Shown piece by piece: positions 6,024 through 25,156 of a DNA stretch of 64,000 nt. The DNA comes from Gammaproteobacteria bacterium (GTDB lineage: Bacteria; Pseudomonadota; Gammaproteobacteria; Chromatiales; Chromatiaceae): assembly GCA_015490795.1 (NCBI GenBank), contig WFXD01000004.1, forward strand, positions 1-64,000, read 5' to 3'. The notes beneath the pieces were generated by a model that was given only the letters and a program-made list of their open reading frames with translations, was not told the DNA's origin and searched no databases. A program made the position numbers and the translations under genes. Positions within the stretch are counted from its first letter, which is position 1; each line of letters starts with the position of its first letter.

Positions 6024-6212
6024 TAGATCGTTGGGCACTTCTGAATATTGCCGAAGGACGGGATGCCTTTTGATGATCACTCATGCAACACAAATCCGTT
6101 TTGACAATCAAAATATAATAAAAACGATCAACAACGGCTGTTGTTGGCAACCGGTGAGCGACAAATTTGCCGGTTCCCTGCGGAAAGGTGGCGCGGTTAT
6201 GAGGTGGAAACC

Positions 6213-8918
6213 ATGAATCACCGAATCTTCAACGCCATTACCGGCCGTCTTTCTCTACGCCCGCCCCAGTCTGAATCACTGGAAAAACTGGCCCTGGCCA
6301 TCGACGCTGCACCGGATATGCTTAGCCACGAGCGTGATCTGAATGCCGTGCTGTCGGCACTGATGGCGGAGTTCCCGACCCTGGAAGAGTTCGAGCGGGA
6401 GTTTCCATCGCTCTGTTTTGCGCTTGCCACTGGCGTGGGCAAGACGCGGTTGATGGGGGCCTTCATCAGCTATCTGCACCTGGCACATGGCTTCAAGCAC
6501 TTTTTCGTGCTTGCACCCAACCTGACCATCTATGACAAGCTGATCGCCGACTTTACGCCTAACACGCCTAAGTACGTATTCAAGGGCATTGCCGAGTTTG
6601 CCAGTTATCCGCCGGAGATTGTCACCGGGGACAACTACGAGCAGCGGGCAGGCACTCTGAGCCTGCTGTCGCCGGTGACAGTAAACATCTTCAATATCTC
6701 CAAGATCAACTCCGAGGTGCGCGGTGGCAAGAGTCCGCGTATTAAGCGCCTGTCGGAGTACCTGGGAGACAGCTACTTCAATTACCTTGCCGAGTTGCCC
6801 GACCTGGTGCTGCTGATGGATGAGTCGCACCGCTACCGCGCCAGTGCGGGGGTGCGCGCTATCAATGAGTTGAAGCCGTTGTTCGGCTTGGAACTGACCG
6901 CCACCCCCTTCGTGGAATCCAGTCGCGGACCCGTGCCCTTCAAGAATGTGGTGATGGACTACCCCCTGGCCCGTGCCATGGAGGATGGCTTTGTCAAGGA
7001 ACCGGCAGCGGTCACTCAGCGCGATTTTGATGCCAAACGCCATACGCCGGAGGAGATCGAAAAGATCAAGCTGGAGGATGGCATTCGCCTGCACGAGGCC
7101 ACCAAGGTGGAGCTGATGACCTATGTGCGCCAGAATGGCGTGAAGACGGTTAAGCCCTTCGTGCTGGTGATCGCCCGCGATACCACTCACGCCTCGCAGC
7201 TGCTGGCGCTGATCCAGTCTGACGCCTTCTTCGAGGGCCGTTACCGCGATAAGGCGATCCAGGTGGACAGCAGCAGGACCGGCAAGGCGGAAGAGGAGAT
7301 GATCGAGCGGCTGTTGGCGGTAGAGAGCGAGGGCGAGCCGACCGAGATTGTCATTCACGTCAACATGCTCAAGGAGGGCTGGGACGTGACCAACCTCTAC
7401 ACCATCGTACCGTTGCGTGCCGCCAATGCGCGGACGTTGATCGAGCAGTCCATCGGCCGCGGCCTGCGCCTGCCCTACGGCAAGCGCACCGGTGTCAATG
7501 TAGTGGATCGCTTGAATATTGTGGCCCACGACCGGTTTCAGGAGATCATCGATGAAGCCAACCGGGGCGATTCGCCGATCCGCCTCAAGCAGGTGATCCT
7601 TGAGACGCCAGACCGGGATGAAGGCGTGGTGAGCGTGCAGATTGGCTCCGCTGCTGAGGTGGCCCTGGGCCTGAGCGAGCCGGAGGTTACTGGTTCGGGT
7701 GGAGACCACTACGAACTGCATCCGGAAGAGCTGGCCGCGCCCGTTTTTTCCACTGAGGCGGAAAAACAGGCAGCCCGTGCCGTGATGGATGTGATTCAGG
7801 GGCTGGAAAAGCGGCAGCAGGAGGTGCCCAACAGCGCTGCTCTGTTGAAGCCTGAGGTGCAGCAGATCATTGCCGCCCAGGTGAAAGAACGTCTGACCCC
7901 GGCTCAAGGAGAGTTGCTGGAGCAGGAGGCCGTGGATCTGGCGTCGGTGATTGCCAAGACAGCCGAGATCGTCACTACTAAAATGATCGACATCCCGCGC
8001 ATTGCCGTGGTCCCCACCGGCGAGGTCACGGTTGGATTCGACCCATTTACCCTGGATGTCAGCGGCCTGCATCTCCAGCCAGCCGACCGGGAGCTGATTA
8101 TCCAGAACCTGCGAACCAATGAGCAGGAGAGGCTGGCCTCGGAAGTAGGCATTATCGAGCGGCGGCTGGAGGATTACATCGTCTATGCCCTGGTGGACTA
8201 TGACGATATCGACTATATAGCCCATGCCGATTTGCTCTACGATCTCGCCGGCCAGATGGTGCGGCACTTGCTGAGCTATCTGTCAGAGGATGAGGCAAGG
8301 GCGGTGTTGGATCATGAACGGCGCCTGATTGCCGAGAATATCCACGCTCAAATGATGGAGCACTTCTGGGAGAAGGCATCAGGTTACGAAGTACAGGTAA
8401 GCTGCGGCTTTACCGCGTTGAAGCCCTGCAACTACACGGCCTCGGCCAGGCATCCGTTGCATCACTTCCGGGAAACGGTGGAGGATAAAAGCCGTATCAA
8501 ACAAATGCTGTTTGGCGGCTTTGAGAAGTGCCTTTATCCGTTACAGAAATTCGACTCTGACACTGAACGCCGGTTTGCCGTAATTCTGGGGCGTGATGCC
8601 GATAAATGGTTCCGGCCTATGAAAAGGCAGTTTCAGATCTTCTACAAGTATGGTGTTGAGCAGCCAGAGTATGTGCCGGACTTTGTGGCTGAGACTGACA
8701 GCGTGATCTACATGGTGGAAATCAAGGCGCGCGGTGACCTTATGGATGCCGAGGTGCTGGCCAAGGCCGATGCGGCAGCGAAATGGTGTCAGTATGCCTC
8801 AGAATACTCTGAGAATCATGGCGGCAAGCCATGGGGGTACCTGCTGATTCCTCATGACGAGATCAATGAATCACGACGTTTGGAAGATTTTAGACGTTTT
8901 GTGAGGATGTCAGAGTAA
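6213..8918 (+). CDS. res: Type III restriction enzyme, Res subunit (helicase-nuclease)
   Basis: ATP-dependent translocase and endonuclease of the type III system. From the ATG at 6213 the protein is 901 residues. Superfamily 2 helicase motifs are visible: motif I ATGVGKTR (about 70), DEAH-like LLMDESHR (about 200), LTATPF (about 228) and motif VI QSIGRGLRLP (about 411). Near the C-terminus PDFVAETDS...VEIKAR (about 820-842) fits the PD-(D/E)XK nuclease of Res subunits. An in-frame codon at 6141 would add 24 residues, but 6213 is preferred because GAGGTGG lies at a suitable distance upstream and the protein then begins MNHRIFNAITGRL. A 189-bp gap separates it from the preceding gene, so it may have its own promoter. 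Partner: Mod at 248-1936. Confidence 0.9.
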   Translation: MNHRIFNAITGRLSLRPPQSESLEKLALAIDAAPDMLSHERDLNAVLSALMAEFPTLEEFEREFPSLCFALATGVGKTRLMGAFISYLHLAHGFKHFFVLAPNLTIYDKLIADFTPNTPKYVFKGIAEFASYPPEIVTGDNYEQRAGTLSLLSPVTVNIFNISKINSEVRGGKSPRIKRLSEYLGDSYFNYLAELPDLVLLMDESHRYRASAGVRAINELKPLFGLELTATPFVESSRGPVPFKNVVMDYPLARAMEDGFVKEPAAVTQRDFDAKRHTPEEIEKIKLEDGIRLHEATKVELMTYVRQNGVKTVKPFVLVIARDTTHASQLLALIQSDAFFEGRYRDKAIQVDSSRTGKAEEEMIERLLAVESEGEPTEIVIHVNMLKEGWDVTNLYTIVPLRAANARTLIEQSIGRGLRLPYGKRTGVNVVDRLNIVAHDRFQEIIDEANRGDSPIRLKQVILETPDRDEGVVSVQIGSAAEVALGLSEPEVTGSGGDHYELHPEELAAPVFSTEAEKQAARAVMDVIQGLEKRQQEVPNSAALLKPEVQQIIAAQVKERLTPAQGELLEQEAVDLASVIAKTAEIVTTKMIDIPRIAVVPTGEVTVGFDPFTLDVSGLHLQPADRELIIQNLRTNEQERLASEVGIIERRLEDYIVYALVDYDDIDYIAHADLLYDLAGQMVRHLLSYLSEDEARAVLDHERRLIAENIHAQMMEHFWEKASGYEVQVSCGFTALKPCNYTASARHPLHHFRETVEDKSRIKQMLFGGFEKCLYPLQKFDSDTERRFAVILGRDADKWFRPMKRQFQIFYKYGVEQPEYVPDFVAETDSVIYMVEIKARGDLMDAEVLAKADAAAKWCQYASEYSENHGGKPWGYLLIPHDEINESRRLEDFRRFVRMSE

Positions 8919-8932
8919 TACGTTCAGGACGT

Positions 8933-8999
8933 TGTAGGTGCGAATTTATTCGCATGAATTTAACGGTGGGGTAGCTATGCGAATAAATTCGCACCTACA
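8933..8999. repeat. REPIN-like inverted repeat
   Basis: Two perfect 23-bp arms (8933-8955 and 8977-8999) flank a 21-bp spacer. Each arm begins TGTAGGTGCGAA and is itself nearly palindromic (GCGAATTTATTCGC). Outward-facing GTAG heads followed by a short palindrome are the hallmark of REP sequences mobilised by RAYT transposases; two in inverted orientation form a REPIN. The right arm supplies the last codons and stop of the DUF5131 relic on the minus strand. Confidence 0.75.
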
Positions 9000-9646
9000 T
9001 TTGTACCGCTTCCCGCTGGCATTTCATCCCATGTTTTCCCCATGAGCAATCTGCCATTCTGTTTCTTCGTCCGTTTCCTGCCGTCGGCTCCCCAACCACC
9101 CCATTGCTTGAAGAAGAAAGCCACGTTTTGCCGTTCACACTGGTGCTGAACGTTGATTGCCCATTCCTGTTTCATAGGGCGGGCCTTGGGGCCGGATTCG
9201 CCACCGACGATGACCCAATGAATTCCGTGCAGATTGATCTTTCCCAGGTCTTCAAGCAGTGGCTCCACAGACAGGAAGCGGATATGCGCCGGAGTGTTCC
9301 GCAGTTCATCAATTCTTGGCAGCCCATCTTCTCTGTTTTCTACAGACACACCGAGCCAAGCGTTCTTTGGCGCCTCGAATGATTGGAAGAATTTAGATAG
9401 CCTATCTGCCCGCTTGGTCAGTATCTGATAGGTGTGCTGAGGTGTTTGCTTGATTACCTCAAAGGCTTGCCTAATAAAGACATCAGGTGCCCCTTCATGA
9501 AAAAGGTCGCTCATTGAGTTGACGAAATATATCGTTGGCTTCCTGCGCCTTAGTGGTTCATCCAGGCGCTCGGATAAAGGTTGCCATGCCACACTCCTTT
9601 CGGTTGCGAACGAGTGTGACAAATAGTTGGCAGGAAGCCCTGGCAT
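8975..9646 (-). pseudogene. DUF5131 (phage Gp37/Gp68-like) protein, N-terminus missing
   Basis: The 223 residues match the middle and end of the DUF5131 family (FVNSMSDLFHE, QILTKRADR, WLGVSVENRED, FLSVEPLLEDLG, VIVGGESGPKARPM, FFFKQWGGW, GKTWDEMP). Family members normally begin with a segment containing the cysteine cluster GCxxxSxGCxxCYA, about 60 residues upstream of this point. Here it is absent: a stop codon lies three codons before the first ATG, and the DNA beyond belongs to the integrase relic. The C-terminus is also odd, since its last residues (VGANLFA) and stop are read from the REPIN. It is probably non-functional. Biochemical role of the family is not established; the cysteine pattern resembles radical SAM proteins. 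Confidence 0.75.
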
Positions 9647-9675: not shown

Positions 9676-9723
9676 CTATTGGTCGGTCGATAACTGCTCC
9701 TGCATGATCGACACTTCCACCAT
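9676..9723 (-). pseudogene. Relic of a tyrosine integrase (first 15 codons)
   Basis: On the minus strand this reads MVEVSIMQEQLSTDQ and stop. The first 14 codons match the start of the integrase at 25073 except one (GTG for GCG at codon 2). The match ends at 9680, and beyond it the DNA is unrelated and leads into the truncated DUF5131 gene. It looks like the stub left when a deletion removed the rest of a second integrase. Confidence 0.6.
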
Positions 9724-9774
9724 CCATGGTGGTCGGAGTGAGAGGATTCGAACCTCCGGCCCCTGCCTCCCGAA
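9680..9774. repeat. Left copy of 95-bp direct repeat (att site with tRNA-Pro 3' half)
   Basis: Matches 25030-25124 with a single mismatch (9719 A, 25069 G). Bases 9730-9774 are the tRNA-Pro 3' half from the anticodon loop to CCA; they cannot fold as a full tRNA. The match stops exactly at the anticodon loop, a common crossover position for tRNA-targeting integrases. The remaining 50 bp lie past the tRNA end and include the integrase start codons. Confidence 0.9.
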
Positions 9775-12599: not shown

Positions 12600-12718
12600 G
12601 GCTGGTGCGCAGAGTGCGGGGTTCGATAGAAAAGCATCTCATATCCTTAAGAAATGCTGCGCTTACACCCATTAGGGTGATCACGACTGGCAGGTTAACC
12701 ACAAGGATGTGGCGTATG

Positions 12719-12745
12719 CCGGTTTTGCAGGGAGCACAAAACCGG
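12719..12745. repeat. 9-bp inverted repeat, possible recombination site
   Basis: CCGGTTTTG (12719-12727) and CAAAACCGG (12737-12745) are perfect inverted arms around a 9-bp centre. It lies 120 bp downstream of the second recombinase. Two arms about one turn apart around a short core fit a tyrosine-recombinase core site, but a simple hairpin is equally possible. Confidence 0.35.
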
Positions 12746-13026
12746 TCAGGCGCTGCTCGTCCGCAACTGGGCGCTATCGGAGTCTGATAGACTTTAGGGC
12801 GCGACTTGATTATAGAGCTAAGCCGCAAACGCTCTCTCAAACTGATAATACTGACTTCCAGTCTGGAAGAATGGTTCCTGATAATCAAGCATGAAAGCTC
12901 CGAGCTAAGTGTGGGCTTTCGGGGAATAATGCTTCGGTATCAATGTGTGCAGGGAAATTCACAGCTCTATGGGCAATGGCTTTGTGATTGAGGGGCATCC
13001 ATTAGTTCTATTTACATTCAATTCAA

Positions 13027-13074
13027 CAAGTTTAATTTGTTATATAAGTATAAAACGAAACTTGCACAAGGTTT
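13027..13074. promoter_or_regulatory. Candidate abiE promoter with repeated CAAGTTT boxes
   Basis: CAAGTTT occurs at 13027, its reverse complement AAACTTG at 13058-13064, and CAAGGTTT at 13067-13074. They surround A+T-rich sequence with -10-like TATAAG and TATAAA (13043-13054). AbiEi antitoxins are known to repress their own operon by binding inverted repeats upstream of the gene; these boxes are the obvious candidates. Assignment is by position and symmetry. Confidence 0.4.
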
Positions 13075-13097
13075 GATTTTACGCTAGATTCACAAAT

Positions 13098-13895
13098 ATG
13101 TCTGGTGAACCCCGTACTAAACTAAACCGCTTGCTCAGGGCCTGGTCCCAGGGCACTGTTGCTGTGTCCCGCTGGCTGGAGGGCCGGGGGGCGTACCAGC
13201 AGCTGCTGCATGAATATGAAAAAAGCGGGTGGATAGAGCGCATCGGCCAGGGTGCTTACATACGTGCCGGCGATACCGTCGAATGGACCGGTGGACTCTA
13301 CGCCCTTCAGGAACAGGTGAAGCTTCCCATCCATGTGGGTGCCAAAACGGCATTGCAGATGCAGGGATATGCGCATTTCCTGCCGCTGGGGCAAGGTGGA
13401 TCCGTGACGCTATTCGGTAGCCCCGGCACCCGGTTGCCCGCCTGGTTTTCCCGGTATGACTGGGGAGCCAAGCTTCGTTACGTCACCACAAAGCTGTTTG
13501 CTGATGACCCGGATGCAGGTCTCACCACGACGACACTGGGCACCTGGAGCGTCATCCTCTCAGCCCCGGAACGTGCCATGATGGAAGTTCTGCATCTGGT
13601 GCCCGGAAAGGAAACTTTCGAAGAAGCGAGCCTGCTCATGGAGAGCATGACCACCCTGCGCCCACGCCTGGTTCAGTCACTGCTGGAGCAATGCCGGTCT
13701 GTGAAAGTGAAACGGTTGTTCATGTTTCTCGCGGAAAACCACAATCATGCCTGGGTTAGAAAGCTGAATCTGTCGCAGGTGGACTTCGGAAAAGGTAAGC
13801 GCATGATCGTCAGAGGTGGACGATTTGATGCAAAATACAAAATTACTGTTCCTGATATGGATTTCAGTCTGGAGGAATCGGTGCATTCGGCATGA
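13098..13895 (+). CDS. abiEi: AbiEi-family antitoxin (type IV toxin-antitoxin)
   Basis: A 265-residue protein with the N-terminal winged-helix DNA-binding domain of AbiEi antitoxins (GTVAVSRWLEGRGAYQQLLHEYEKSGWIERIGQGAYIRAGD). A C-terminal antitoxin region follows, with HVGAKTALQMQGYAHFL and the conserved STPERAMME-like segment SAPERAMMEVLHLV. In known AbiE systems AbiEi represses transcription and neutralises AbiEii. It overlaps abiEii by 4 bp (ATGA). As the first gene of a run that continues without gaps into hsdRMS, its repressor activity could set expression of the whole defence operon. Confidence 0.85.
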   Translation: MSGEPRTKLNRLLRAWSQGTVAVSRWLEGRGAYQQLLHEYEKSGWIERIGQGAYIRAGDTVEWTGGLYALQEQVKLPIHVGAKTALQMQGYAHFLPLGQGGSVTLFGSPGTRLPAWFSRYDWGAKLRYVTTKLFADDPDAGLTTTTLGTWSVILSAPERAMMEVLHLVPGKETFEEASLLMESMTTLRPRLVQSLLEQCRSVKVKRLFMFLAENHNHAWVRKLNLSQVDFGKGKRMIVRGGRFDAKYKITVPDMDFSLEESVHSA

Positions 13896-14809
13896 AGGAG
13901 AGTCCTTACTTCAAACAGGCGCAGCTCATGCTGCGGGTCATGCCCCATGTGGCAGCAGAAGAATGCTTTGCGCTGAAGGGCGGCACGGCAATCAACTTCT
14001 TTGTACGCAACATGCCGAGACTATCAGTTGATATCGATCTGACTTGGTTGCCGCTGGAGCCACGCGACATGGCATTGGCAAATATCGGCCAAGCTCTGCA
14101 CCGTATTGCTACCGGCATATGCAAAACCATGCCTGAAGCGGCTGTGCAGGAAAGTATCGCAAGAAGTGCGGAGCACGCTTCCAAGCTGTTCGTAAGCACA
14201 GGTGAGGCTACGATCAAAATTGAGCCGAATCTGGTGCTACGTGGCACAGTATATCCTCCCGAGGAACGGGAACTGAGTGTGCGGGCCGAGGAGCTGTTTG
14301 AACTGTCTGCTTCAATAAACACAGCGGCATTTGCAGACCTTTATGGCGGCAAGCTCTGTGCGGCACTGGATCGCCAGCATCCACGTGACCTTTTTGATAT
14401 TAAAGTGCTGATGGATAATGAAGGCATTACCGATGAGATTCGAAGCGCATTCATCGTGTATCTTGCAAGTCACAACCGTCCGATGAGTGAATTGCTCAAC
14501 CCTAACAAAAAAGATTTTCGCCAAGTATTTGAGCAAGAATTTGTTGGAATGACGATAGAAGAAGTTGAGTACGATGAACTGATTGCAGTCCGTAAAAGGC
14601 TCATTGAAACAATCAAGAAAGCGATGACAGAGAATGAGAAGAAATTTCTGCTTTCAATAAAGTATGGGGAACCGGCATGGGATCTTATGCCAATGGCAGG
14701 TATCGACCAACTGCCAGCGCTTCAATGGAAGCTGATCAATATTCAGAAGATGAAGAAAGCGAAACGGGTAGAGTCACTTCAGAAGCTTCAATCGGTATTG
14801 GGGTTGTGA
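13892..14809 (+). CDS. abiEii: AbiEii/AbiGii-family nucleotidyltransferase toxin
   Basis: A 305-residue toxin of the DUF1814 nucleotidyltransferase group. The active-site signature FALKGGTAINFF (about residues 27-38) followed by LSVDIDLTWLP (metal-binding D-x-D) is clear. Later motifs ADLYGGKLCAALDRQHPRDLFDIKVL are also typical of the family. AbiEii-type toxins modify RNA (some charge tRNA 3' ends with nucleotides) and block growth when phage infection upsets the antitoxin; the target here is unknown. The stop codon directly abuts the hsdR start codon, with no spacer. Confidence 0.88.
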   Translation: MKESPYFKQAQLMLRVMPHVAAEECFALKGGTAINFFVRNMPRLSVDIDLTWLPLEPRDMALANIGQALHRIATGICKTMPEAAVQESIARSAEHASKLFVSTGEATIKIEPNLVLRGTVYPPEERELSVRAEELFELSASINTAAFADLYGGKLCAALDRQHPRDLFDIKVLMDNEGITDEIRSAFIVYLASHNRPMSELLNPNKKDFRQVFEQEFVGMTIEEVEYDELIAVRKRLIETIKKAMTENEKKFLLSIKYGEPAWDLMPMAGIDQLPALQWKLINIQKMKKAKRVESLQKLQSVLGL

Positions 14810-16948
14810 ATGAGCGACTATAGCAACAAAAAGGAAGCCTTCTCCCGCGTTGTAATCGATGCGCAACTCAAGGATGTCGGATGGAATCTCACTGATGGTC
14901 AGAGTGTGCGTTATGAGTACAAGTTGCCAGACGGCACGTTCGCTGATTATGTCCTGAGTGACCGCTACGGCCGGGCGATGGCGGTAGTTGAGGCCAAGCG
15001 GGCTGCTGTTAACCTTCAGGAGGCGGCAGACCAGGGGCGGGCCTATGCTGAGCAACTGGATGATGTACCTTATATCTTCCTTGCCAATGGTGAAGAGATC
15101 CTGTTCTGGGACTACCGCAATGAGGCCTACCCGCACCCTGTCAGTACCTTTTTTAAACAGGGGGATATCGAACGCCGTCTGGCCAAGCGCAAGGTTCGAG
15201 TCGATCCACTGAGCAAGCCAATCGACCAACGGATTGCCGGTCGGGACTACCAGAAAGAGTGCATTGATATCTTGTGTGGAGAGATGAATATCGGCCGGCG
15301 AAAACTGCTGGTTGAGATGGCTACCGGCACCGGTAAGACACGCACCGCCGCGGCGCTCATCAAACGTCTGTTTGAGGCAAGTAACGCTACTCGCGTTCTG
15401 TTCCTGGTAGATCGCATTACCCTGGCCAAGCAGACGGAAGATGCCTTCAATGAGCACCTGCCTGATTTTCCTTGCTATGTCCTGCGTACCGGCCGCCGTT
15501 TCCAGGACGAGAAACTCATCACCATCACCACCCTCCAGAGCATGATCAATATCTACCGCGATTACTCAGCGGGATATTTTGATCTTATCATCACCGATGA
15601 ATGCCACCGCAGCATCTACGGCAAGTGGAGCGGTATCCTCAAATACTTCGATGGTATCCAGATTGGTCTGACGGCTACTCCATTCACCAGCAATATAGAA
15701 ACTGGTGATGAAGAAGACCTGGAGTTCGTCCGGGATACATTACGTTTTTTTGGGGTTAGTGAACCGACTTACCGGTATGCCCTACGCAATGCGGTAAATG
15801 AAGGCTACCTCGTCCCCTACCAAATTTACAAGGCACAGACAATCAAGACGGCAGCCGAGGATGGTTTCGAGGTCAAAAAGAGTGAGTTGGACTGGTCTGC
15901 CATGTCACCAAAGGTCAAAGAGGAATTCACCCAACTCTTCGCAGACCGTGACACCATCAAGGTTGATCCCAATGCTCTGGAGCGCAAGTTCACCATTCCC
16001 GAGCGTAACCGCGCCATTGTGCGCGAATATAAGCAGGTAATGGAAAAGGGCTACACAGACCACACGGGCAGATTGCGCAAGCCACTCATTGGCAAGACCA
16101 TCGTCTTTGCCGTCACCAAGCGCCATGCTGAGACACTAGCCCAGATGTTTGATGAGGCTTTTGCGCACGAAAAACCTTCACCGGATGTACGTTATGCTGA
16201 TTTCGTGGTCTCGGGTTGCGGCAAGGAAGACAGTGTGGATGGCGCAACCAAGATCAAACGATTCAAGAAAGAGCGCTTTCCACAGATACTTGTCTCCGTG
16301 AACATGCTGGATACGGGTTTTGATGCGCCTGAGGTCGTCAACCTGATCATGGCCCGGTTCACCCGCTCGGTGATCCTCTACCGACAGATGCGCGGACGCG
16401 GTACGCGCAAGTCCCCCGGTAAATCTCTTTTTACCTTGTTCGACTTTGTTGGTGTGACCGACTACCACGATGATGACGAAACCATGCCGGAAGGTGGGTT
16501 CATCAAAGAGGCCAAGCCACGAACCCGGCATGAACCCAGAACGCTGCTGCCCCTTGATGTCGATGACCACATTGATCCTTCCACACGGGAATGGGTCACC
16601 ATTGATGACAATGGCAATTTTGTCTTCATGGATGCCGATGAAGCAAAGGCCGCCCTGCGGGGTGCCCGGTTCGAGGCCTGGATGGGCGGCCAGAAACACC
16701 TGAACTCCGACATGAAGCGGTTGCTGCTGACGGTGGGTGAGTACATCAAGGCCAATGCCGACACCCTGGAAGAGTTCACGATTGACCACTTTGTAGTGCC
16801 ACCATTCTCCAATATCGGCGGTATGCAGCGTGCTATGCAGTCATTTGGCACTGAGGACAAATTGGCAAAAACAATCAAGAGCCTGAACAAAGCCCTCTTT
16901 GCATATGGCGAAACAGTCCATAACGAACAAAAACCACTTAACCCCTGA
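14810..16948 (+). CDS. hsdR: Type I restriction enzyme, R subunit
   Basis: A 712-residue motor and nuclease subunit. The N-terminal PD-(D/E)XK nuclease is seen as FADYVLSDRYGRAMAVVEAKR (about residues 44-65). Superfamily 2 motor motifs follow: ATGTGKTRTAA (about 172), ITDECHRSIYGKW (about 262), LTATPF (about 290), FAVTKRHAETLAQ (about 434) and RQMRGRGTRKS (about 524). It is shorter than EcoR124-type HsdR and in the size range of EcoEI-like subunits. With HsdM and HsdS it would translocate and cut DNA that lacks the methyl mark. ATG directly follows the AbiEii stop codon, strong evidence for a shared message. Confidence 0.9.
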   Translation: MSDYSNKKEAFSRVVIDAQLKDVGWNLTDGQSVRYEYKLPDGTFADYVLSDRYGRAMAVVEAKRAAVNLQEAADQGRAYAEQLDDVPYIFLANGEEILFWDYRNEAYPHPVSTFFKQGDIERRLAKRKVRVDPLSKPIDQRIAGRDYQKECIDILCGEMNIGRRKLLVEMATGTGKTRTAAALIKRLFEASNATRVLFLVDRITLAKQTEDAFNEHLPDFPCYVLRTGRRFQDEKLITITTLQSMINIYRDYSAGYFDLIITDECHRSIYGKWSGILKYFDGIQIGLTATPFTSNIETGDEEDLEFVRDTLRFFGVSEPTYRYALRNAVNEGYLVPYQIYKAQTIKTAAEDGFEVKKSELDWSAMSPKVKEEFTQLFADRDTIKVDPNALERKFTIPERNRAIVREYKQVMEKGYTDHTGRLRKPLIGKTIVFAVTKRHAETLAQMFDEAFAHEKPSPDVRYADFVVSGCGKEDSVDGATKIKRFKKERFPQILVSVNMLDTGFDAPEVVNLIMARFTRSVILYRQMRGRGTRKSPGKSLFTLFDFVGVTDYHDDDETMPEGGFIKEAKPRTRHEPRTLLPLDVDDHIDPSTREWVTIDDNGNFVFMDADEAKAALRGARFEAWMGGQKHLNSDMKRLLLTVGEYIKANADTLEEFTIDHFVVPPFSNIGGMQRAMQSFGTEDKLAKTIKSLNKALFAYGETVHNEQKPLNP

Positions 16949-16963
16949 CACAACTGGACCACA

Positions 16964-18622
16964 ATGCCGTTAACCCCTGAAATCCGACAGAAGATCGAGC
17001 AGATCCGCGACTACCTCTATGGCGGCGGTTATCCCGATCCTATGAATAACGCCGAACAGTTGGCATTCCTGTTTTACTTCTACCTCAGCGAAGGCCGGGA
17101 CAAAGAGAATATCAGCCGTGCCCGCATCACCAAGCAGTCGTTCACCAGTTATTATGATGGCCGGTGGGCGCTCAAGAACCCCCTCAACGCGCCCAAAGAA
17201 GGACAGAAGACGATCTCCCGCGACCGGTTGCGCTGGTCTGTCTGGGCCAAGGCGCTAAGCGGTGAGAACCTGGTGTGTTTCCTGCGTGATGAAGTGTTTG
17301 CTTTTCATACCGAGGTGGCCAGCAACGGCGCCGTGAATTTCATGGATGGCGCCCGCCTCGGTATCGATGATCCCACGGTGCTCACCCAGGTGATCAATCT
17401 GGTGGATGAACTGCGCCTCGATCAGGCCGATGCCGACACTAAAGGCGACCTGTTCGAACATGTCCTCAAACAGATCAGTCAGGCCGGTGAACTGGGCCAG
17501 TTCCGCACGCCAAGGCATGTCATTCGCGCCATCGTGCAGATGGTTGATCCGCAAATCGGTGAGACGGTATATGATCCGGCTGCCGGTACCGCAGGTTTCC
17601 TGGTTGCCGCCTATGACCATATCCGGCTGCGGAACTCCTCGCCCAATGCTATCGAGGAAGTTGAGCTGGATGGCAAAAAGATCAAGCGCGGACACGGCGA
17701 CAAGCTCTCCGCCGCAAAGTGGGACATTCTTGGCAGCAAGACCTTCTATGGCAACGACGTGGACCCCAAGATGGTCCATCTCGCCACCATGAACCTGACC
17801 CTGCGCGGCTTGCCCCACGTGCGCATCCGCCGCCGCAACGTTCTGACCACCACCCTGGATGCTCAACAGAAAGAAGATCTCGGCCTGCCGCAGGAAGGTT
17901 ACGCCGTCATCCTTGCCAATCCCCCGTTTTCCGGTCGCATCGACAAGGACCGCATCGTCGATGACGTGAAGGTGGGTACCACCACCGCCACAGAGATCCT
18001 GTTTATCAAATACATGATGGACTCGTTACGCTCCCCTACTAGCTCCAGAAGAGGGGCCAGGGGTAAGGGTGGCCGTTGTGGTGTTATTGTGCCTGAGGGT
18101 GTGCTGTTCGGCTCTACCGGTGCCCACAAGGAGCTGCGCCGTCAGTTGTTGGAGAACAATACGGTGGAAGCTGTGCTTTCTTTGCCGAGCGGTACCTTCC
18201 AGCCTTACTCCAACGTGAAGACCTCTGTGCTGATATTTAGGAAAGGTGGCAGCACTGACAAGGTGCTGTTCCTCCATGCCGATAACGATGGCTATAAACT
18301 TGATGCCAAGCACGATGCCCCTATTGATGACGATGATTTACCTGGCTTGGTTGCCGCCTACCAGGATTGTGAAGCATGTTGGATGAAATGGGGCAGGCGC
18401 AAGGAAGGCGAAGAGTGGGCTGAAAAATGGTGGTTTGCCACTGCTGATGATATCAAAGCTAATGAGTATAACTTATCGGCGGGGCGTTACCGTCCGTTGG
18501 TGCAAGCTCAGGTTGAGCATCGTGCCCCGCTTGAGTTGCTGGATGAATTGGCAGCAATAGAATCGGAGATAGTGGAGGAAATTGAGGGGCTTCGCGAGGT
18601 GCTGGGCGAGGTTGGATCATGA
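16964..18622 (+). CDS. hsdM: Type I R-M DNA methyltransferase, M subunit
   Basis: A 552-residue N6-adenine methyltransferase. The N-terminal HsdM helical domain is followed by GQFRTPRHVIRAIVQMV, the SAM-binding motif YDPAAGTAGFL (about residues 202-212) and the catalytic NPPF in LANPPFSGRID (about 318-328). GVIVPEGVLFG and KTSVLIFRKG are conserved later blocks. It acts as M2S for methylation and as part of R2M2S for restriction. The gene starts 15 bp after hsdR and overlaps hsdS by 4 bp. Confidence 0.93.
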   Translation: MPLTPEIRQKIEQIRDYLYGGGYPDPMNNAEQLAFLFYFYLSEGRDKENISRARITKQSFTSYYDGRWALKNPLNAPKEGQKTISRDRLRWSVWAKALSGENLVCFLRDEVFAFHTEVASNGAVNFMDGARLGIDDPTVLTQVINLVDELRLDQADADTKGDLFEHVLKQISQAGELGQFRTPRHVIRAIVQMVDPQIGETVYDPAAGTAGFLVAAYDHIRLRNSSPNAIEEVELDGKKIKRGHGDKLSAAKWDILGSKTFYGNDVDPKMVHLATMNLTLRGLPHVRIRRRNVLTTTLDAQQKEDLGLPQEGYAVILANPPFSGRIDKDRIVDDVKVGTTTATEILFIKYMMDSLRSPTSSRRGARGKGGRCGVIVPEGVLFGSTGAHKELRRQLLENNTVEAVLSLPSGTFQPYSNVKTSVLIFRKGGSTDKVLFLHADNDGYKLDAKHDAPIDDDDLPGLVAAYQDCEACWMKWGRRKEGEEWAEKWWFATADDIKANEYNLSAGRYRPLVQAQVEHRAPLELLDELAAIESEIVEEIEGLREVLGEVGS

Positions 18623-19863
18623 TCTGTGCTCAGAAACAGGCGGCCGCTTATCAGTTATGCCGCGCAAATGTGGCACATCAACCTCTGGGGGAGGTATGTC
18701 AAATCAATCCTAGACTTCCAAAGGATGCAAAGCCTGATTCAGACACACAAGTTACTTTTGTGCCGATGACGGTAGTTGATGAAGAAACTGGGTCCATACA
18801 GGCTCCGGATATCCGGCCATATTCTGAGGTCGCAAAAGGCTACACCCATTTCTTAAATGGTGATGTGCTCTTCGCCAAAATCACCCCTTGTATGGAGAAT
18901 GGCAAGGCAGCTATTGCTACTAACCTAGTCAATGGTCTTGGATTTGGATCCACAGAGTTCCATGTTCTGCGTGCAGAACCGGAGGTTTTGCCAGAGTGGG
19001 TGTTTTATTTTGTTCGCCGTGAAAGTTTTCGATGTCAGGCCAAAGCAAGCTTTACTGGTTCAGCAGGCCAGCAAAGAGTCTCAAGGCAATTTATGGAAAC
19101 TGTGCAGATTCCTGTTCCCTCTCTTTCTGAACAACGCCGCATCATCGACATCCTCAAACGCGCCGACGGTATCCGCCGCTTGCGCAAACAGGCTCAGGAT
19201 ACCGCCCGCCAACTGATCCCCGCCTTATTCGTCGATATGTTCGGTGACCCGGTGGCGAACCCAAACGGCTGGATAATCAAACCGCTCAAAGAAGTAGCTC
19301 ATATCGGGTCAGGTATAACCAAGGGACGAAAACTGAACGGGCATCAGACTGTAGAGTTGCCCTACTTGGCAGTGTCAAATGTTCAGGATGGCCATCTGAA
19401 CCTTACGAAGGTTAAATCTATCCATGTCAAACCTATAGAAATAGAGAAATACCGAGTACTCCCAGGCGATTTTCTGATGACTGAGGGAGGTGACCCTGAC
19501 AAGCTCGGTCGCGGTGCGATATGGAACGGTGAAATCGATGTCTGTCTCCACCAGAACCATGTGTTCAAAGTGCGATGTAACAGAGAAGTGATTCTCCCGG
19601 AATACCTGAGATCACTTGTCGGTAGTTATTACGGAAAGGGATATTTTCTTCGTATTGCAAAACAGACAACCGGGATAGCTTCTATCAACAAGACACAGCT
19701 CGGTAACTTTCCTGTGCTGGTGCCACCGATAGAGTTCCAAAATGACTTTGTAGCGCAATTAGAGGGCATTCAGTCCATTATGGGCCAACAGGAAGCGGCA
19801 CAGGCTAGTGCTGAGTCAAGTTTTCAATCACTCATACACCATGCATTTTCCGTTGGGTTCTGA
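18619..19863 (+). CDS. hsdS: Type I R-M specificity subunit
   Basis: A 414-residue protein with two target recognition domains (about residues 15-170 and 215-390), each followed by conserved helical spacers. The central one reads LSEQRRIIDILKRADGIRRLRKQAQ, then LIPALFVDMFGDPV, where the second half begins. The DNA coding for both recognition domains is richer in A+T than the spacers, as expected for modules exchanged by recombination. It determines the bipartite site recognised by HsdM and HsdR. The start overlaps hsdM by 4 bp. Confidence 0.9.
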   Translation: MICAQKQAAAYQLCRANVAHQPLGEVCQINPRLPKDAKPDSDTQVTFVPMTVVDEETGSIQAPDIRPYSEVAKGYTHFLNGDVLFAKITPCMENGKAAIATNLVNGLGFGSTEFHVLRAEPEVLPEWVFYFVRRESFRCQAKASFTGSAGQQRVSRQFMETVQIPVPSLSEQRRIIDILKRADGIRRLRKQAQDTARQLIPALFVDMFGDPVANPNGWIIKPLKEVAHIGSGITKGRKLNGHQTVELPYLAVSNVQDGHLNLTKVKSIHVKPIEIEKYRVLPGDFLMTEGGDPDKLGRGAIWNGEIDVCLHQNHVFKVRCNREVILPEYLRSLVGSYYGKGYFLRIAKQTTGIASINKTQLGNFPVLVPPIEFQNDFVAQLEGIQSIMGQQEAAQASAESSFQSLIHHAFSVGF

Positions 19864-19934
19864 ATGATGAAAAACCTTCGTGAATCTTCGTCCCCTTCGT
19901 GGATAACATTTATTCCAGACCAGGTTAAGCCAAC

Positions 19935-21647
19935 ATGCTGACACACATAACCATCCGCAATTTCAAAGGCTTCGAAGAGGCCTCTTTCGAGCTGGGCGAC
20001 CGGGTTGTGCTGATCGGGCCGAACAACTCCGGCAAGACCTCGGCGTTGCAAGCCCTGGCGCTGTGGGACATCGGCCTCAAACGTTGGATCGAGAAGCGAG
20101 GTACGGGTCCACTGCCAAAAAAGAAACGTCAGGGCGTGACGATCAACCGCCGTGACCTGATTGCGGTCTCAGTCCCCGCAGCCAACCTGCTCTGGCGCAA
20201 CCTTCATGTTCGGGAGTCGGTTAAGGGCAAGGGCACCCAAAATATCCGTATCGACATCATCGTCAAAGGGGTTTCGAACGGTGGGGCCTGGGAATGCGGT
20301 CTGGAGTTCGATTACGCCAACGAGGAGTCCTTCTACTGTCGGCCCTTACGTTTGAGTGAGGAAAAGGATCCCGAACGTATGCCGGTCCCCGAGCAGGCGC
20401 GGGGGGTGCGGGTTGCCTATCTACCACCCATGTCTGGTCTTACTGCCGTCGAGACACGGCTGGATGCCGGGGCGATCAATGTCAGGCTGGGTGAGGGACG
20501 CACTGCGGAGGTTTTGAGAAACCTCTGTTACCGGATACTTGAGGGGGAGAATGGCGAACAGCAATGGGTTGACCTGACCGATAGGATCAAAAAATTCTTT
20601 GGCGTGGAACTGGATGAGCCGCGCTATTTGACCGAACGAGGAGAGATCATGCTCTCCTATCGTGACCGGGGTGTGCAACTCGATATCTCATCATCCGGAC
20701 GCGGGTTGCAACAGACCATTCTGCTGCTGGCTCACATGATGGCGAATCCCGGGTCGGTGCTGCTCATGGATGAGCCGGATGCCCACCTTGAGATATTACG
20801 CCAGCGGCAGATATACCAATTGCTGACAGACACTGCCAGGCAGTATGGCAACCAGCTTCTCGCCGCCAGCCATTCCGAGGTTATCCTCAACGAGGCCGCA
20901 GATCGGGATATGGTCATTGCATTCGTGGGAAAACCCCACCGAATTGACGACAGAGGCTCCCAGCTACTCAAGTCCCTGAAAGAGATAGGCTATGAGCAAT
21001 ACTATCAGGCGGAAGAGACCGGGTGGGTGCTTTACCTGGAAGGCTCCACTGATCTTGCGATCCTTCGGGCCTTTGCCGAGGTTCTCGAACATCCTGCAAG
21101 TGAGGCTCTCGAACGTCCATTCGTTCACTATGTCGCAAACCAGCCCATGAAGGCGCTGGATCATTTTCACGGTCTGCGGGAGGCGAAGCCCGATCTGTCC
21201 GGGATCGCCATCTATGATCGCCTTGCTAAGAGCCTGCCAGGCAACTCGAATCTTGAACAGCGAATGTGGCAGCAATGCGAAATTGAGAACTACCTGTGTG
21301 GCAGGGAGGTGATACTGTCTTGGACAAGAGCGACCGCAGAAGGGGAATCGGAAGGCCCGCTCTTTGCTCAACGATGGGGAAAACTAATGAAAGGGACGAT
21401 CGCAGAATTTGAAACGGCTTTTGAAACACTGGGGAAACCATCACCTTGGGGGGCGGAAATCAAGGCTACAGATGATTTTCTTGACCCATTGTTCGACAAG
21501 TTCTTCGAGAAACTAGGGTTGCCCAACCTCATGCGTAAGACTGACTATCACGAACTAGCAAGATTTGTTCAAGCCGAAACACTTGATCTGGAAGTGAAGG
21601 AGGTGCTGGATGCTATTCAGCATGTAGCAGAGGCGGCTTCTTCTTGA
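19935..21647 (+). CDS. OLD-like ATPase with TOPRIM nuclease domain
   Basis: A 570-residue protein. The N-terminal ABC-type ATPase has MLTHITIRNFKGFEEASFELG and Walker A LIGPNNSGKTS (about 26-36). A signature-like SSGRGLQQTILLLAHM is at about 255 and Walker B VLLMDEPDAHLE at about 274. After it, LYLEGSTDLAILRAFAEVL (about 366) and SGIAIYDR (about 422) look like the acidic motifs of a TOPRIM domain. This is the architecture of OLD-family nucleases, which include GajA, but no UvrD-like partner is next to it. It lies 71 bp behind hsdS in the same direction, so it probably belongs to the defence operon. The intervening DNA has CTTCGTG-type short repeats. Confidence 0.75.
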   Translation: MLTHITIRNFKGFEEASFELGDRVVLIGPNNSGKTSALQALALWDIGLKRWIEKRGTGPLPKKKRQGVTINRRDLIAVSVPAANLLWRNLHVRESVKGKGTQNIRIDIIVKGVSNGGAWECGLEFDYANEESFYCRPLRLSEEKDPERMPVPEQARGVRVAYLPPMSGLTAVETRLDAGAINVRLGEGRTAEVLRNLCYRILEGENGEQQWVDLTDRIKKFFGVELDEPRYLTERGEIMLSYRDRGVQLDISSSGRGLQQTILLLAHMMANPGSVLLMDEPDAHLEILRQRQIYQLLTDTARQYGNQLLAASHSEVILNEAADRDMVIAFVGKPHRIDDRGSQLLKSLKEIGYEQYYQAEETGWVLYLEGSTDLAILRAFAEVLEHPASEALERPFVHYVANQPMKALDHFHGLREAKPDLSGIAIYDRLAKSLPGNSNLEQRMWQQCEIENYLCGREVILSWTRATAEGESEGPLFAQRWGKLMKGTIAEFETAFETLGKPSPWGAEIKATDDFLDPLFDKFFEKLGLPNLMRKTDYHELARFVQAETLDLEVKEVLDAIQHVAEAASS

Positions 21648-21788
21648 TACGTCCAGAATGAGCAGCAGATTAACTAACAACCCTTTGTATTACACTCTTG
21701 ACTACCCGGCTTATTCGCGGGCCTACTCAGTGACGCGGGGCGATTTGGAGGCAAAAGCTCTATATCTCTTTGCGCAGAGAATGAAAAA

Positions 21789-22018
21789 TCAAACCTCCAC
21801 AACCACAGGCACCTCAATCTATAGATATCCAGCTCGGTTTCCGGCGTCATGACCGACACAATAAGCGCATATCGTACTTTTTTGTTGTAGCGTTTCAGAT
21901 GATGCCGTTCACGCCACCAGCCTATTGTTGGATAGACGGCGATGTGGTCCCGGCTGGCGAGATCGGTGGCCATGCCATGCCAGATGTCAGAGTGCAGTAA
22001 TCCAAGATCATGGAAATG
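21789..22018 (-). pseudogene. C-terminal fragment of an S8 (subtilisin-like) peptidase
   Basis: The minus strand reads GLLHSDIWHG, then LASRDHIAVYPTIGWWRERHHL, then RYALIVSVMTPETELDIY. I associate this pattern with the C-terminal domain of large S8 peptidases found in mobile and defence loci; this assignment is from memory. After DIY the frame shifts: a neighbouring frame gives IEVPVVVEV and a stop (21789-21791), a plausible original end. Upstream, a stop codon (TAG at 22028-22030) and unrelated sequence cut it off, so the catalytic domain is gone. Confidence 0.5.
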
Positions 22019-22328
22019 AACTGCTGGCTAAGATTCATGAGGAGTATGAGGAGCATCTCACATATCGCACCAGTCGGCATACGCTTAGCCGTGTCGTGGC
22101 GGCACTCAACGTGTTTAAACCCCGTGGTTGGGAGGTTGCCGTTGATGTAAGAGATGCTGTTGGCATGTTTACTGGGTATATGGATATGGGGGGGTTGCCA
22201 ATGTGGGCATCGTCATGATGGCCCTTGGGCAGCGCTATTTTGGCTTCGAATTGGAGCTGAAGTTGGCCGGTCTCAGGGCTAATCTACTGCTCTGGTGGGA
22301 TGGAATATCGGTATCTTGTCGAGTGTAA
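22009..22328 (+). pseudogene. Frameshifted fragment of an unknown protein
   Basis: One frame reads HGNELLAKIHEEYEEHL, then RVVAALNVFKPRGWEVAVDVRDAVGMFTGYMDMG, up to a run of seven G (22186-22192). After it the sensible reading continues in a different frame as VANVGIVMMALGQRYFGFE and on to a stop at 22326. The protein-like character on both sides suggests a single-base indel in the G-run. I do not recognise the family. Its start meets the S8 peptidase fragment near 22010-22030, presumably an old deletion or insertion junction. Confidence 0.4.
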
Positions 22329-22338
22329 ATCCTGACCA

Positions 22339-22500
22339 CTATGCACTGAGAACAGTGCACACTGGTGAGGACTCACGTCCTTTATGCTTGTTGTGGCGTC
22401 GGTACTTGGTTTGGTCACGGAATGTAGATGCCCGCTGAAATCGTGCCGCATATCTGGCAACGGGGTTTCGGCGAGATGGCTTGGGCGGTTTTTTGCTCAT
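22339..22500 (-). CDS. Candidate ArfA-like ribosome-rescue factor (53 aa)
   Basis: A very small, very basic ORF (53 residues) with ATG at 22500 and an AAAGGAAA ribosome site upstream. It begins MSKKPPKPSRRNPVARYAA and continues with STFRDQTKYRRHNKHKGRE. The N-terminal MSKKP, an FR.. segment and a lysine/arginine-rich K..R...HKG block resemble ArfA, which recruits release factor 2 to ribosomes stalled on messages lacking a stop. A stem-loop sits on the last codons: TGCACTG and CAGTGCA around a 4-base loop. ArfA genes in several gammaproteobacteria carry such a hairpin near the end, making a stop-less message that is degraded unless tmRNA fails. Assignment rests on short similarity and is tentative. 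Confidence 0.45.
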   Translation of the reverse strand: MSKKPPKPSRRNPVARYAARFQRASTFRDQTKYRRHNKHKGRESSPVCTVLSA

Positions 22501-22533
22501 AGTTGCTTTCCTTTCAGGTTGTAGAGAAGGTTA

Positions 22534-23616
22534 TCATTTGGCCCACTTATATCGTGCCCGATGAATGTGATGGTTAAGAGGAAGCCGGCCATCATGCTGC
22601 AGCCGGCCAACGACGATTCCCGGCGCGATATCGATCTCATCGGAAAATGATGCAATATTTGCAGCAGTGAAGTGTCCTGCCTTTACAAAAGCTCGATAAG
22701 GCGCTGGTGGGATGAGTGTTTTTTGGGCAAATTCATCGGCTTCTTCTTCCTGTTTCTTCCAGTTAGGGTCGTTAAGCCCATCTTCAAGGAAGGTATGGCG
22801 CTTGTCATGCAGCAGGATGTGCCCCAGTTCGTGAAATAGGCTAAACCAGAAAATATCCGCCCAGCTTCCCCGGATGCTCATCATTAAAACAGCCTTGTTC
22901 GGGTTGGCCCAGAAGGTTGCACCATTGGTATAGGTTTTTGGAAAGCGTGGCAGTAGTACGAACGCAATGCCCACTTCCGCCAGTTGCTGCTTGAGTGCCG
23001 ACAGAAAGGCTCCAGGTTCTTCACGAGTCAGATGGCGAAGTTTTCGCAATGCTGCGCGTGCCTTGGCCTGGTCGAATGGCTTGGTATCAATCTTGTCAGC
23101 CTCCAGTGCGCCTCCACGCAACCACGCAACCAGTGCCTCATGCGAGGCTTTGCTCTTGGTGGATTGGCGAAATGCTGGCGCATAGGCACGTACACCGGGC
23201 AGATTGTGTAGCGAGGCCACACCGAAAAATCGGCGCAGTTCCACCACCTTTTCTGATCGTTTGCGGGTTGGCTTTACCCAGCCGAGTTTTGCGATTTCGG
23301 GGTAGGGGAAGTGAATAGCCAGATTGGTTTCGTGTTCAACCTGTTCTGCTGCATTGCTTCGCGCCTTTGTCAGCTGATACTCTGCCTCCAGACCGGTCCA
23401 GATATGAGCGGGCACACCAAGCACCTGCTCCAGTTGCAGCGCAGTATCCGGCGTAATGGACTTGATACCACTGGCAATCTCACTGATTGCCTGGACAGGC
23501 CGGCCCATGCGTCGCGCCAATTCAGCCTGGCTCATGCTCATTTCTTCAGCAATCTCGGACAAATAAACCCCCGGCGGTACTGCAAGATCCGAATAGATTT
23601 CCTGGTTAGTCGCCAT
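22534..23616 (-). CDS. higA: HigA/ImmA-type antitoxin: HTH plus ImmA/IrrE metallopeptidase
   Basis: A 360-residue protein. The N-terminal XRE helix-turn-helix is of HigA type (PPGVYLSEIAEEMSMSQAELARRMGRPVQAISEIASG, about residues 14-50). The second half is an ImmA/IrrE-like zinc peptidase domain with HELGH at residues 262-266, then EEEADEFAQKTLIPP. It would act as antitoxin and autorepressor for the RelE-like toxin encoded just upstream. Whether the peptidase motif is active in regulation is unknown. The start codon lies inside the toxin gene (11-bp overlap), so the toxin comes first, as in higBA operons. Confidence 0.8.
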   Translation of the reverse strand: MATNQEIYSDLAVPPGVYLSEIAEEMSMSQAELARRMGRPVQAISEIASGIKSITPDTALQLEQVLGVPAHIWTGLEAEYQLTKARSNAAEQVEHETNLAIHFPYPEIAKLGWVKPTRKRSEKVVELRRFFGVASLHNLPGVRAYAPAFRQSTKSKASHEALVAWLRGGALEADKIDTKPFDQAKARAALRKLRHLTREEPGAFLSALKQQLAEVGIAFVLLPRFPKTYTNGATFWANPNKAVLMMSIRGSWADIFWFSLFHELGHILLHDKRHTFLEDGLNDPNWKKQEEEADEFAQKTLIPPAPYRAFVKAGHFTAANIASFSDEIDIAPGIVVGRLQHDGRLPLNHHIHRARYKWAK

Positions 23617-23908
23617 AATGTTTGCTTACCTCTTCGATGTGGACAATTTCCAGCATCTCACCCTCAAGGGAAAAAATCAGTCGATAGAATCCGGTGATAT
23701 TGACGGCGTATTGCCCAGTCCGATCCCCTTTGAGTGGATGACATCGCAATACGGGCAGTCTTATCAATTCCTCGATATTCTTGGCTTGCTTGATCGTGTT
23801 GATGCGTAGGATATATCGCTTCGCGGCGTCCTCGCCATACGCCTTAACGGCCTTCCGATATTCTCTGTAGCAGCGTTCCAGCTGTCTGGTCCTGAAAACA
23901 ACGATCAA
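23606..23908 (-). CDS. higB: HigB/RelE-family toxin
   Basis: A 100-residue protein of the RelE/ParE fold: MIVVFRTRQLERCYREYRKAVKAYGEDAAKRYILRINTI in pieces up to residue 40, then LPVLRCHPLKGDRTGQYAVNITGFYRLIF, the usual basic and aromatic residues of ribosome-dependent mRNA interferases. The start is TTG at 23908 with AAAGGA about 9 bp upstream. It is followed by and overlaps the HigA/ImmA-like antitoxin gene, with a 21-bp palindromic operator about 50 bp upstream. Confidence 0.82.
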   Translation of the reverse strand: MIVVFRTRQLERCYREYRKAVKAYGEDAAKRYILRINTIKQAKNIEELIRLPVLRCHPLKGDRTGQYAVNITGFYRLIFSLEGEMLEIVHIEEVSKHYGD

Positions 23909-24095: not shown

Positions 24096-25073
24096 CTATC
24101 CTAATTTCCTCGCCAAATCCTCTGCCTTGAGGTGCGTATATCTGCGCAGCATGCGCAGATCTTTGTGCCCGGTAATGCTGGCCACTTCCATGATGTTGAG
24201 ACCGAGTTCGAAAAAGCGCGTTGTGGCTTCATGCCGCAGATCATGGAAATGGAGGTCTTCAATTCCGGCCCGGCGTACCGCACGGATATAGGCGCGTTTG
24301 ACGGCCTCGGTAGTGAGTCCGGGGAATACTTGGCCGTGGATGCCGCGTGGGAGTGATCGCAGAACTCTGATAGCAATGGATGACAGTGGCACGTCACGCG
24401 ATTCTCCATTCTTGGTGTCCGGCAGGTGGGCAGTGCGGCGATTTAGATCAATATTCTCCCAGCGAAGGCTGACCAGCTCTGCCTGGCGCATGGCAGTCTC
24501 TAGCGCCAGGTGAACAATAGGGAGGAGGAATGGGTTTTTGGCCCCTTTGCATGCTTCCAGCAGTCGGCTTTCTTCGCTTTTCTCACCGTCGTGGCCGGTC
24601 TGAAGGCGGCGTTCCCGGGCTTTGGAGTGTGGAGGCAGTTTGATGTCCCGTACCGGATTGGCGACGTGAATCCCCCATTCTTTGCGGGCGACTTCAAATA
24701 GATGGGAGATGATCACAAGCTCCTTTTTGACGGTGGCCGGTAGAACCTTTTTTAAACGCGCATCCCGGTAGCGAGCGATATCAACACCGCGGATACTGGC
24801 AACAATTCGGTGTGCAAGCGAATGCTTGAGGAAAGCACGGATACGGGCGGACTCGGATGCGACCCCTTTCTTCAGCGGAGTGATCTCTTCCTTATAGCGC
24901 TCTAACAGCTCCCGCAGCGTGGTGGATTCTGCTTCTGCCCGGGATACGAAGATGCCCTGGTCCATTTCATACTCTACTGCCCGGACCCACTTCTCTGCGG
25001 CAGCGCGGGTATCAAAGGTATTGCACTGATGGTCGGTCGATAACTGCTCCTGCATGATCGACACTTCCGCCAT
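24096..25073 (-). CDS. int: Island integrase (tyrosine recombinase)
   Basis: A 325-residue integrase reading away from tRNA-Pro. Catalytic residues are seen in the order Arg (TAMRQAELVSLRW), Lys (TKNGESRDVPLS), His-x-x-Arg (HDLRHEATTRFF), His (TGHKDLRMLRR) and Tyr (RRYTHLKAEDLA). The core-binding domain covers about residues 50-150. The start at 25073 is 7 bp from the tRNA CCA end; compared with relatives the extreme N-terminus looks short, since the usual RKR..WRA arm-binding start is missing, and the frame runs on into the tRNA without another good start. It should integrate and excise the island at the tRNA 3' half. Confidence 0.9.
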   Translation of the reverse strand: MAEVSIMQEQLSTDHQCNTFDTRAAAEKWVRAVEYEMDQGIFVSRAEAESTTLRELLERYKEEITPLKKGVASESARIRAFLKHSLAHRIVASIRGVDIARYRDARLKKVLPATVKKELVIISHLFEVARKEWGIHVANPVRDIKLPPHSKARERRLQTGHDGEKSEESRLLEACKGAKNPFLLPIVHLALETAMRQAELVSLRWENIDLNRRTAHLPDTKNGESRDVPLSSIAIRVLRSLPRGIHGQVFPGLTTEAVKRAYIRAVRRAGIEDLHFHDLRHEATTRFFELGLNIMEVASITGHKDLRMLRRYTHLKAEDLARKLG

Positions 25074-25124
25074 CCATGGTGGTCGGAGTGAGAGGATTCG
25101 AACCTCCGGCCCCTGCCTCCCGAA
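25030..25124. repeat. Right copy of 95-bp direct repeat (att site in tRNA-Pro)
   Basis: Same sequence as 9680-9774 except one base. It covers the tRNA-Pro 3' half from the anticodon loop through CCA (25080-25124), the 6-bp spacer and the first 44 bases of int. A plain integration would duplicate only the tRNA part plus any chance identity; the extension into int needs a second related element. Confidence 0.9.
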
Positions 25125-25156
25125 GGCAGTGCTCTACCAGGCTGAGCTACACTCCG
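25080..25156 (-). tRNA. tRNA-Pro (anticodon CGG)
   Basis: A full cloverleaf of 77 nt with encoded CCA. The acceptor is CGGAGTG paired with CACTCCG. The D arm is GCTC/GAGC. The anticodon stem CTGCC/GGCAG has loop TTCGGGA, giving anticodon CGG. The T arm has TTCGAAT in its loop. The 5' end is 2 bp after the ispB stop codon and there is no separate promoter, so it is probably processed from the ispB transcript. Its 3' half is the island attachment site. Confidence 0.95.

Follow-up and report, generated by a model that had tools for sequence, protein, structure and literature searches.

An AbiE toxin-antitoxin pair joined to the 5' end of type I restriction-modification genes on a tRNA-Pro island, a candidate controller of restriction

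The window analysed here, a 64,000-nucleotide stretch of contig WFXD01000004.1 from a gammaproteobacterium of the Chromatiaceae, contains a tight run of six same-strand genes (13098-21647, +), whose reading frames and spacings, first described in a sequence-only reading, were all confirmed. The run opens with abiEi (13098-13895; 265 aa), encoding a type IV antitoxin and predicted winged-helix repressor (Pfam AbiEi_3_N and AbiEi_3, PADLOC AbiEi), which overlaps by 4 bp with abiEii (13892-14809; 305 aa), encoding a predicted nucleotidyltransferase-like toxin (Pfam AbiEii, 6e-40) with GGTAxN and DID motifs; S. agalactiae abiE has the same 4-bp overlap, which is thus ordinary (PMC3985639). The ATG of hsdR, the type I restriction subunit gene (14810-16948; 712 aa; ResIII, PADLOC REase_I 1e-81), immediately follows the abiEii TGA, and after 15 bp comes hsdM (16964-18622; 552 aa; N6-adenine methyltransferase, N6_Mtase 5e-50), itself overlapping by 4 bp with the specificity subunit gene hsdS (18619-19863; 414 aa; Methylase_S 2e-15). 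A gap of 71 bp separates hsdS from the last gene, which encodes an OLD-like ATPase with a degenerate TOPRIM-like C-terminal part (19935-21647; 570 aa; AAA_21/AAA_15).

By sequence, the first two genes form an AbiE type IV toxin-antitoxin (TA) pair, with an AbiEi winged-helix (wHTH) N-domain and antitoxin C-domain next to the AbiEii nucleotidyltransferase motifs, and the next three a type I restriction-modification (R-M) system, with HsdR PD-ExK and SF2 helicase motifs (ExK, Walker A, DECH and QMRGRGTR), HsdM SAM (motif I) and NPPF motifs, and HsdS. AbiEii, HsdR and HsdM retain all of the catalytic motifs that were checked. HsdR is not assigned to the EcoAI-family R subunits, since it scores below the NCBIfam equivalog cut-off (269 versus 550 bits). 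A search of PDB sequences with AbiEi alone gave no match, but its AlphaFold model (pLDDT 88) has S. agalactiae AbiEi (6y8q, E 1e-8) and Rv2827c (1zel) as best fold matches.

The product of the sixth gene, previously described as an OLD-like nuclease, appears OLD-like both in its N-terminal ATPase part, which matches OLD 6p74 (E 4e-6), and in the ExxxD and EIEN motifs of its C-terminal part, conserved in three homologues; the middle motif is DR rather than DxD, and nuclease activity is putative. A structure model built from three sequences was poor (pLDDT 47). The ATPase was not found beside R-M genes elsewhere, and two close relatives lie in viral contigs that lack matching hsd genes; we regard the protein as a candidate abortive effector.

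The gene run is carried on a 15.4-kb island that lies in a tRNA-Pro gene (25080-25156, −; the sole hit of an RNA family search) and is bounded by 95-bp direct repeats that are 98.9% identical: an attL-like copy on the left (9680-9774) and one on the right (25030-25124) that overlaps the tRNA gene. The tyrosine integrase of the island (24096-25073, −; Phage_integrase 2e-30) abuts tRNA-Pro. Further cargo at 22534-23908 (−) consists of a HigA-type gene, in which an HTH and an IrrE-like (Peptidase_M78) domain are fused and which PADLOC identifies as PD-Lambda-2_B, and a HigB-like gene; this is a second TA-like pair on the island and possibly a PD-Lambda-2 type defence. Relatives of the left end of the island, which has HTH_17 and HTH_36 genes, occur in locus L036, where an AAA ATPase gene precedes hsdR, and in genome G206, which has abiE and no hsdR, so that related elements carry different cargo. 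Outside the left repeat lie a type III restriction-like helicase gene (6141-8918, +; PADLOC REase_III 1e-208) and a DUF5131 gene (8975-9646, −) matching the candidate defence families PDC-M30B/M41B; a 47-bp DUF5131-like remnant also adjoins the decayed hsdR of locus L032, described below.

The adjacency of abiEii and hsdR is not unique to this strain. In L037, a Thiohalobacter metagenome-assembled genome, the abiEii TGA is directly followed by the ATG of a whole hsdR, whose product is 85% identical to that of the window, and in L032 (genome G178) the same join is found with abiE intact and hsdR decayed to 56 codons, followed by unrelated host genes. Since these independent assemblies share the abiEii/hsdR join, it is neither chance nor an assembly artefact. 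The complete abiE-hsdRMS-OLD order proposed by the sequence-only reading, of which the abiEii/hsdR join thus recurs, was seen only at this locus among everything searched. AbiE is not a general neighbour of R-M genes: none of ~45 other AbiEii loci had these hsd genes within ~1.5 kb. Viral contigs contained no AbiEii relatives, and matched HsdR at 29% identity only.

The position of the join is defined by two kinds of relatives. DNA homology between the window and the closest other hsdR loci, which lack abiE (L036, L038, L043 and L044), begins only at ~14826-14831, about codon 6 of hsdR, which places the attachment of abiE and its promoter at the start of that gene. In genome G506, conversely, hsdR is missing and the abiEii C-terminus is replaced, and the match to the window takes in abiE and the 128 bp upstream of it (90.5% DNA identity); as the upstream DNA is kept there, including 55 consecutive identical bases (12987-13041), abiE travels with its own promoter. 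On the reverse strand of the G506 locus (L094), the gene downstream of abiEii resembles a WYL-type defence regulator, its translation having been judged by eye. Divergence of the window from L037 is about the same in abiE as in hsdR (around 78%), as expected if the modules were joined before these lineages split, and both modules are under purifying selection, with dN/dS values of 0.10-0.16 for AbiEi and AbiEii and ~0.04 for HsdR and HsdM. An HsdR tree did not group the window with L037, so that one clade of abiE-linked HsdR proteins was neither recovered nor rejected (p-AU 0.156), and a second exchange is conceivable.

The promoter/operator region carried with abiE (12970-13097, +) contains a promoter candidate, TTTACA-16-TAATTT (13011-13038, +), which is a sigma70-like consensus match only and, by the E. 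coli consensus, ties with a site inside hsdM for the best plus-strand score in 12600-22600. The candidate falls within the block identical in G506 and is overlapped by a dyad, CAAGTTTAATTT-N14-AAAcGAAACTTG (13027-13064), that is a candidate AbiEi operator. Its arms match at 10 of 12 positions, which in the window alone is no better than chance (60 of 500 shuffles were as good), and the G506 counterpart matches at 11 of 12 (3 of 500 shuffles). No conserved operator was found across L032 and L033, where the dyad is not clearly retained. At the abiEii/hsdR junction (14800-14812, +), an SD-like GGGG in the last abiEii codons precedes the TGA stop and the hsdR ATG; this hsdR ribosome-site candidate inside the end of abiEii is common to the window, L032 and L037 (GGGG, GGGG and GGAG, respectively), each with the same stop-start arrangement. 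Plus-strand terminator-like sites are absent near this junction and from abiEi to the later part of hsdR; within the gene run there are only two weak stems, one in hsdR and one in hsdM, the total in the region being close to the chance rate, and a terminator-like hairpin, again a consensus match only, follows the run (22482-22499, +). The description of the run as one operon is accordingly plausible as far as the sequence goes, given the top-tied promoter candidate upstream and a junction free of terminator-like sites.

HsdR relatives above ~58% identity are rare (~1% of sampled genomes), and the surroundings of their genes vary at both ends of hsdRMS. Directly before hsdR and on the same strand, 11 of 18 loci have a regulator/DNA-binding or TA gene: AbiE (window and L037), a FitA-like RHH antitoxin with a PIN toxin (FitAB-like; L069, with a 4-bp overlap with hsdR), BrnT with a small partner-like gene (L040), a VapB-like RHH protein (L068), HTH_3 (XRE) genes (L038, L041 and L042), HVO_A0114 regulators (L039 and L046) or a weakly matched wHTH gene overlapping the hsdR start (L043). 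The remaining seven have WGR, AAA_16, RAMA, a methylase or nothing recognisable, and L060, L070 and L071 are without any occupant at this end. After hsdS, none of 13 loci has a regulator or TA gene, and the position is held instead by the OLD-like ATPase (window), SIR2 (L036 and L042), TIR (L039), GmrSD (L058), Piwi (L072), DUF3644 (L041), DUF2254 (L038), an SDH protease (L069) and others. The two ends thus differ in content (Fisher p 0.0004, for classes set post hoc in few loci, some of them related). Among the 3' genes are a Piwi-domain, argonaute-like gene directly after hsdRMS (L072 5010-7202, genome G120), a SIR2-STAND gene (L042 15921-18371), SIR2 with a 935-aa protein (L036 15052-18802) and two TIR genes (L039 15009-16016), the SIR2 and TIR genes possibly being R-M-linked NADase effectors. 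Among eight more distant plasmid R-M-S operons that were inspected, three have a gene for a sigma54-interacting regulator ahead of a long hsdR (L097, L098 and L100, from Vitreoscilla, Vibrio and Pseudomonas plasmids), which may encode a conserved controller; in one of the eight, VapC lies between hsdS and hsdR.

Because the 5' position in this hsdR clade is usually taken by a regulator or TA gene and the 3' position never is, AbiE would fill a controller slot. The reading that we favour, with confidence evenly poised, is that of a mobile anti-phage operon with layered defences, formed when a TA pair of type IV with its own promoter was joined 5' of a type I R-M cassette, AbiEi becoming the controller. 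The abiE promoter (~12970-13097) would transcribe abiEi-abiEii-hsdR-hsdM-hsdS and probably the ATPase gene, with hsdR translated from a ribosome site inside abiEii and possibly coupled to translation of the latter. AbiEi, which by homology is both antitoxin and autorepressor, would hold output low and in this way control R-M; its repression of the whole operon is likely by analogy with the family, for which the autorepression invoked by the sequence-only reading is documented (PMC3985639, PMC7319586). Should AbiEi drop or be titrated, restriction, modification and toxin output would rise together. Induction by phage would require a trigger that removes or titrates AbiEi, since AbiEi would be made from the promoter that it represses; the same question arises for RptR, the regulator of a related system discussed below (PMC12255303). 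The toxin itself, initially called suicidal, may be less drastic than that word implies, S. agalactiae AbiEii being reversibly bacteriostatic and not lethal (PMC3985639). Within the hsdR clade, slot occupants would be swapped between mobile elements.

It is also conceivable, although we think it rather unlikely, that AbiE is mainly an addiction module of the tRNA-Pro island that came to lie before hsdR by an accident of insertion, with the R-M genes using read-through or a weak promoter of their own. AbiE was able to stabilise an unstable plasmid (PMC3985639), most abiE relatives occur without R-M genes, as in the ~45 loci mentioned above, and G206 has a related abiE beside the same island backbone genes; on the other hand, the tight join persists in two lineages, both modules being undamaged wherever they can be seen, and regulators or TA genes recur at exactly this position in other members of the clade. 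Addiction fits the island as a whole. The suggestion that the toxin stabilises the R-M genes in particular is weakened by L032 (G178), which lost a working hsdR yet kept abiE, and by G206 and G506, which have abiE without hsdR.

Still less probable, in our judgement, is a neutral accumulation of functionally independent neighbours at the two ends of hsdRMS, acting as recombination hot spots within a defence island. The occupants of both slots are indeed highly variable, and three loci have nothing at the 5' end; yet the kinds of gene found in the 5' slot differ from those in the 3' slot, and a number of 5' genes (in L043, L059, L069 and the window) either run ~4 bp into hsdR or directly adjoin it, suggesting coupling. 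A guard of the PrrC kind, in which the R-M complex would hold or trigger a toxin that fires when phage block restriction, has a precedent in PrrC with its type Ic R-M system (PMC3506569, PMC12707154) but is very improbable here, as a full and conserved antitoxin gene is present and AbiE is a stand-alone pair elsewhere.

Returning to AbiEi as controller, the couplings of type I R-M with toxins that are already known, PrrC and RptR-DarTG2 (PMC3506569, PMC12255303, PMC12707154), allow the locus to be placed. The closest precedent is the RptR type I R-M island with embedded DarTG2 of E. coli EPEC (PMC12255303), in which, as is predicted at the AbiE locus, a small repressor leads the operon and regulates its own promoter, and which likewise includes a TA pair and an extra 3' gene. 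However, RptR is a separate protein of 79 aa, whereas the would-be repressor here is the antitoxin itself, and DarTG2 lies between hsdS and hsdR rather than before hsdR; moreover, the first gene of the present run is abiEi and TAGCTA repeats are absent from 12970-13097, setting it apart from RptR-regulated systems. The AbiE pairs of S. agalactiae and Serratia share both families, gene order, the 4-bp overlap and a wHTH antitoxin, which in the members characterised regulates its own expression negatively, but are two-gene operons, whereas here hsdRMS and the ATPase gene continue unbroken. PrrC-EcoprrI similarly unites restriction with translation or growth arrest in one locus, but the PrrC anticodon nuclease lacks an antitoxin of its own and is kept silent by the R-M complex, whereas AbiE includes a dedicated one. 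C-protein type II R-M systems also encode an autoregulated DNA-binding protein upstream of the nuclease, although their enzymes are type II and the controller is no antitoxin. A literature search covering non-subscription papers other than preprints found no description of an R-M operon headed by abiE.

The switching of type I R-M operons is, to our knowledge, little understood. Repression of hsdRMS by AbiEi, if it occurs, would make a single protein responsible both for the restraint of a growth-arrest toxin and for the level of restriction, so that one signal would serve both defence layers. According to a proposal in a 2012 survey, the toxins of immunity loci come without typical antitoxins (PMC3506569), whereas antitoxin-type genes are present here and in the FitAB-, BrnT- and AbiE-led relatives. 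More tentatively, the recruitment of a type IV antitoxin as a type I R-M controller may reflect a general rule, by which an exchangeable 5' regulator/TA slot and a 3' abortive-effector slot would give each such operon its switch, its restriction core and its kill layer. This two-slot anatomy can be tested directly, and provides a route to further controllers and effectors.
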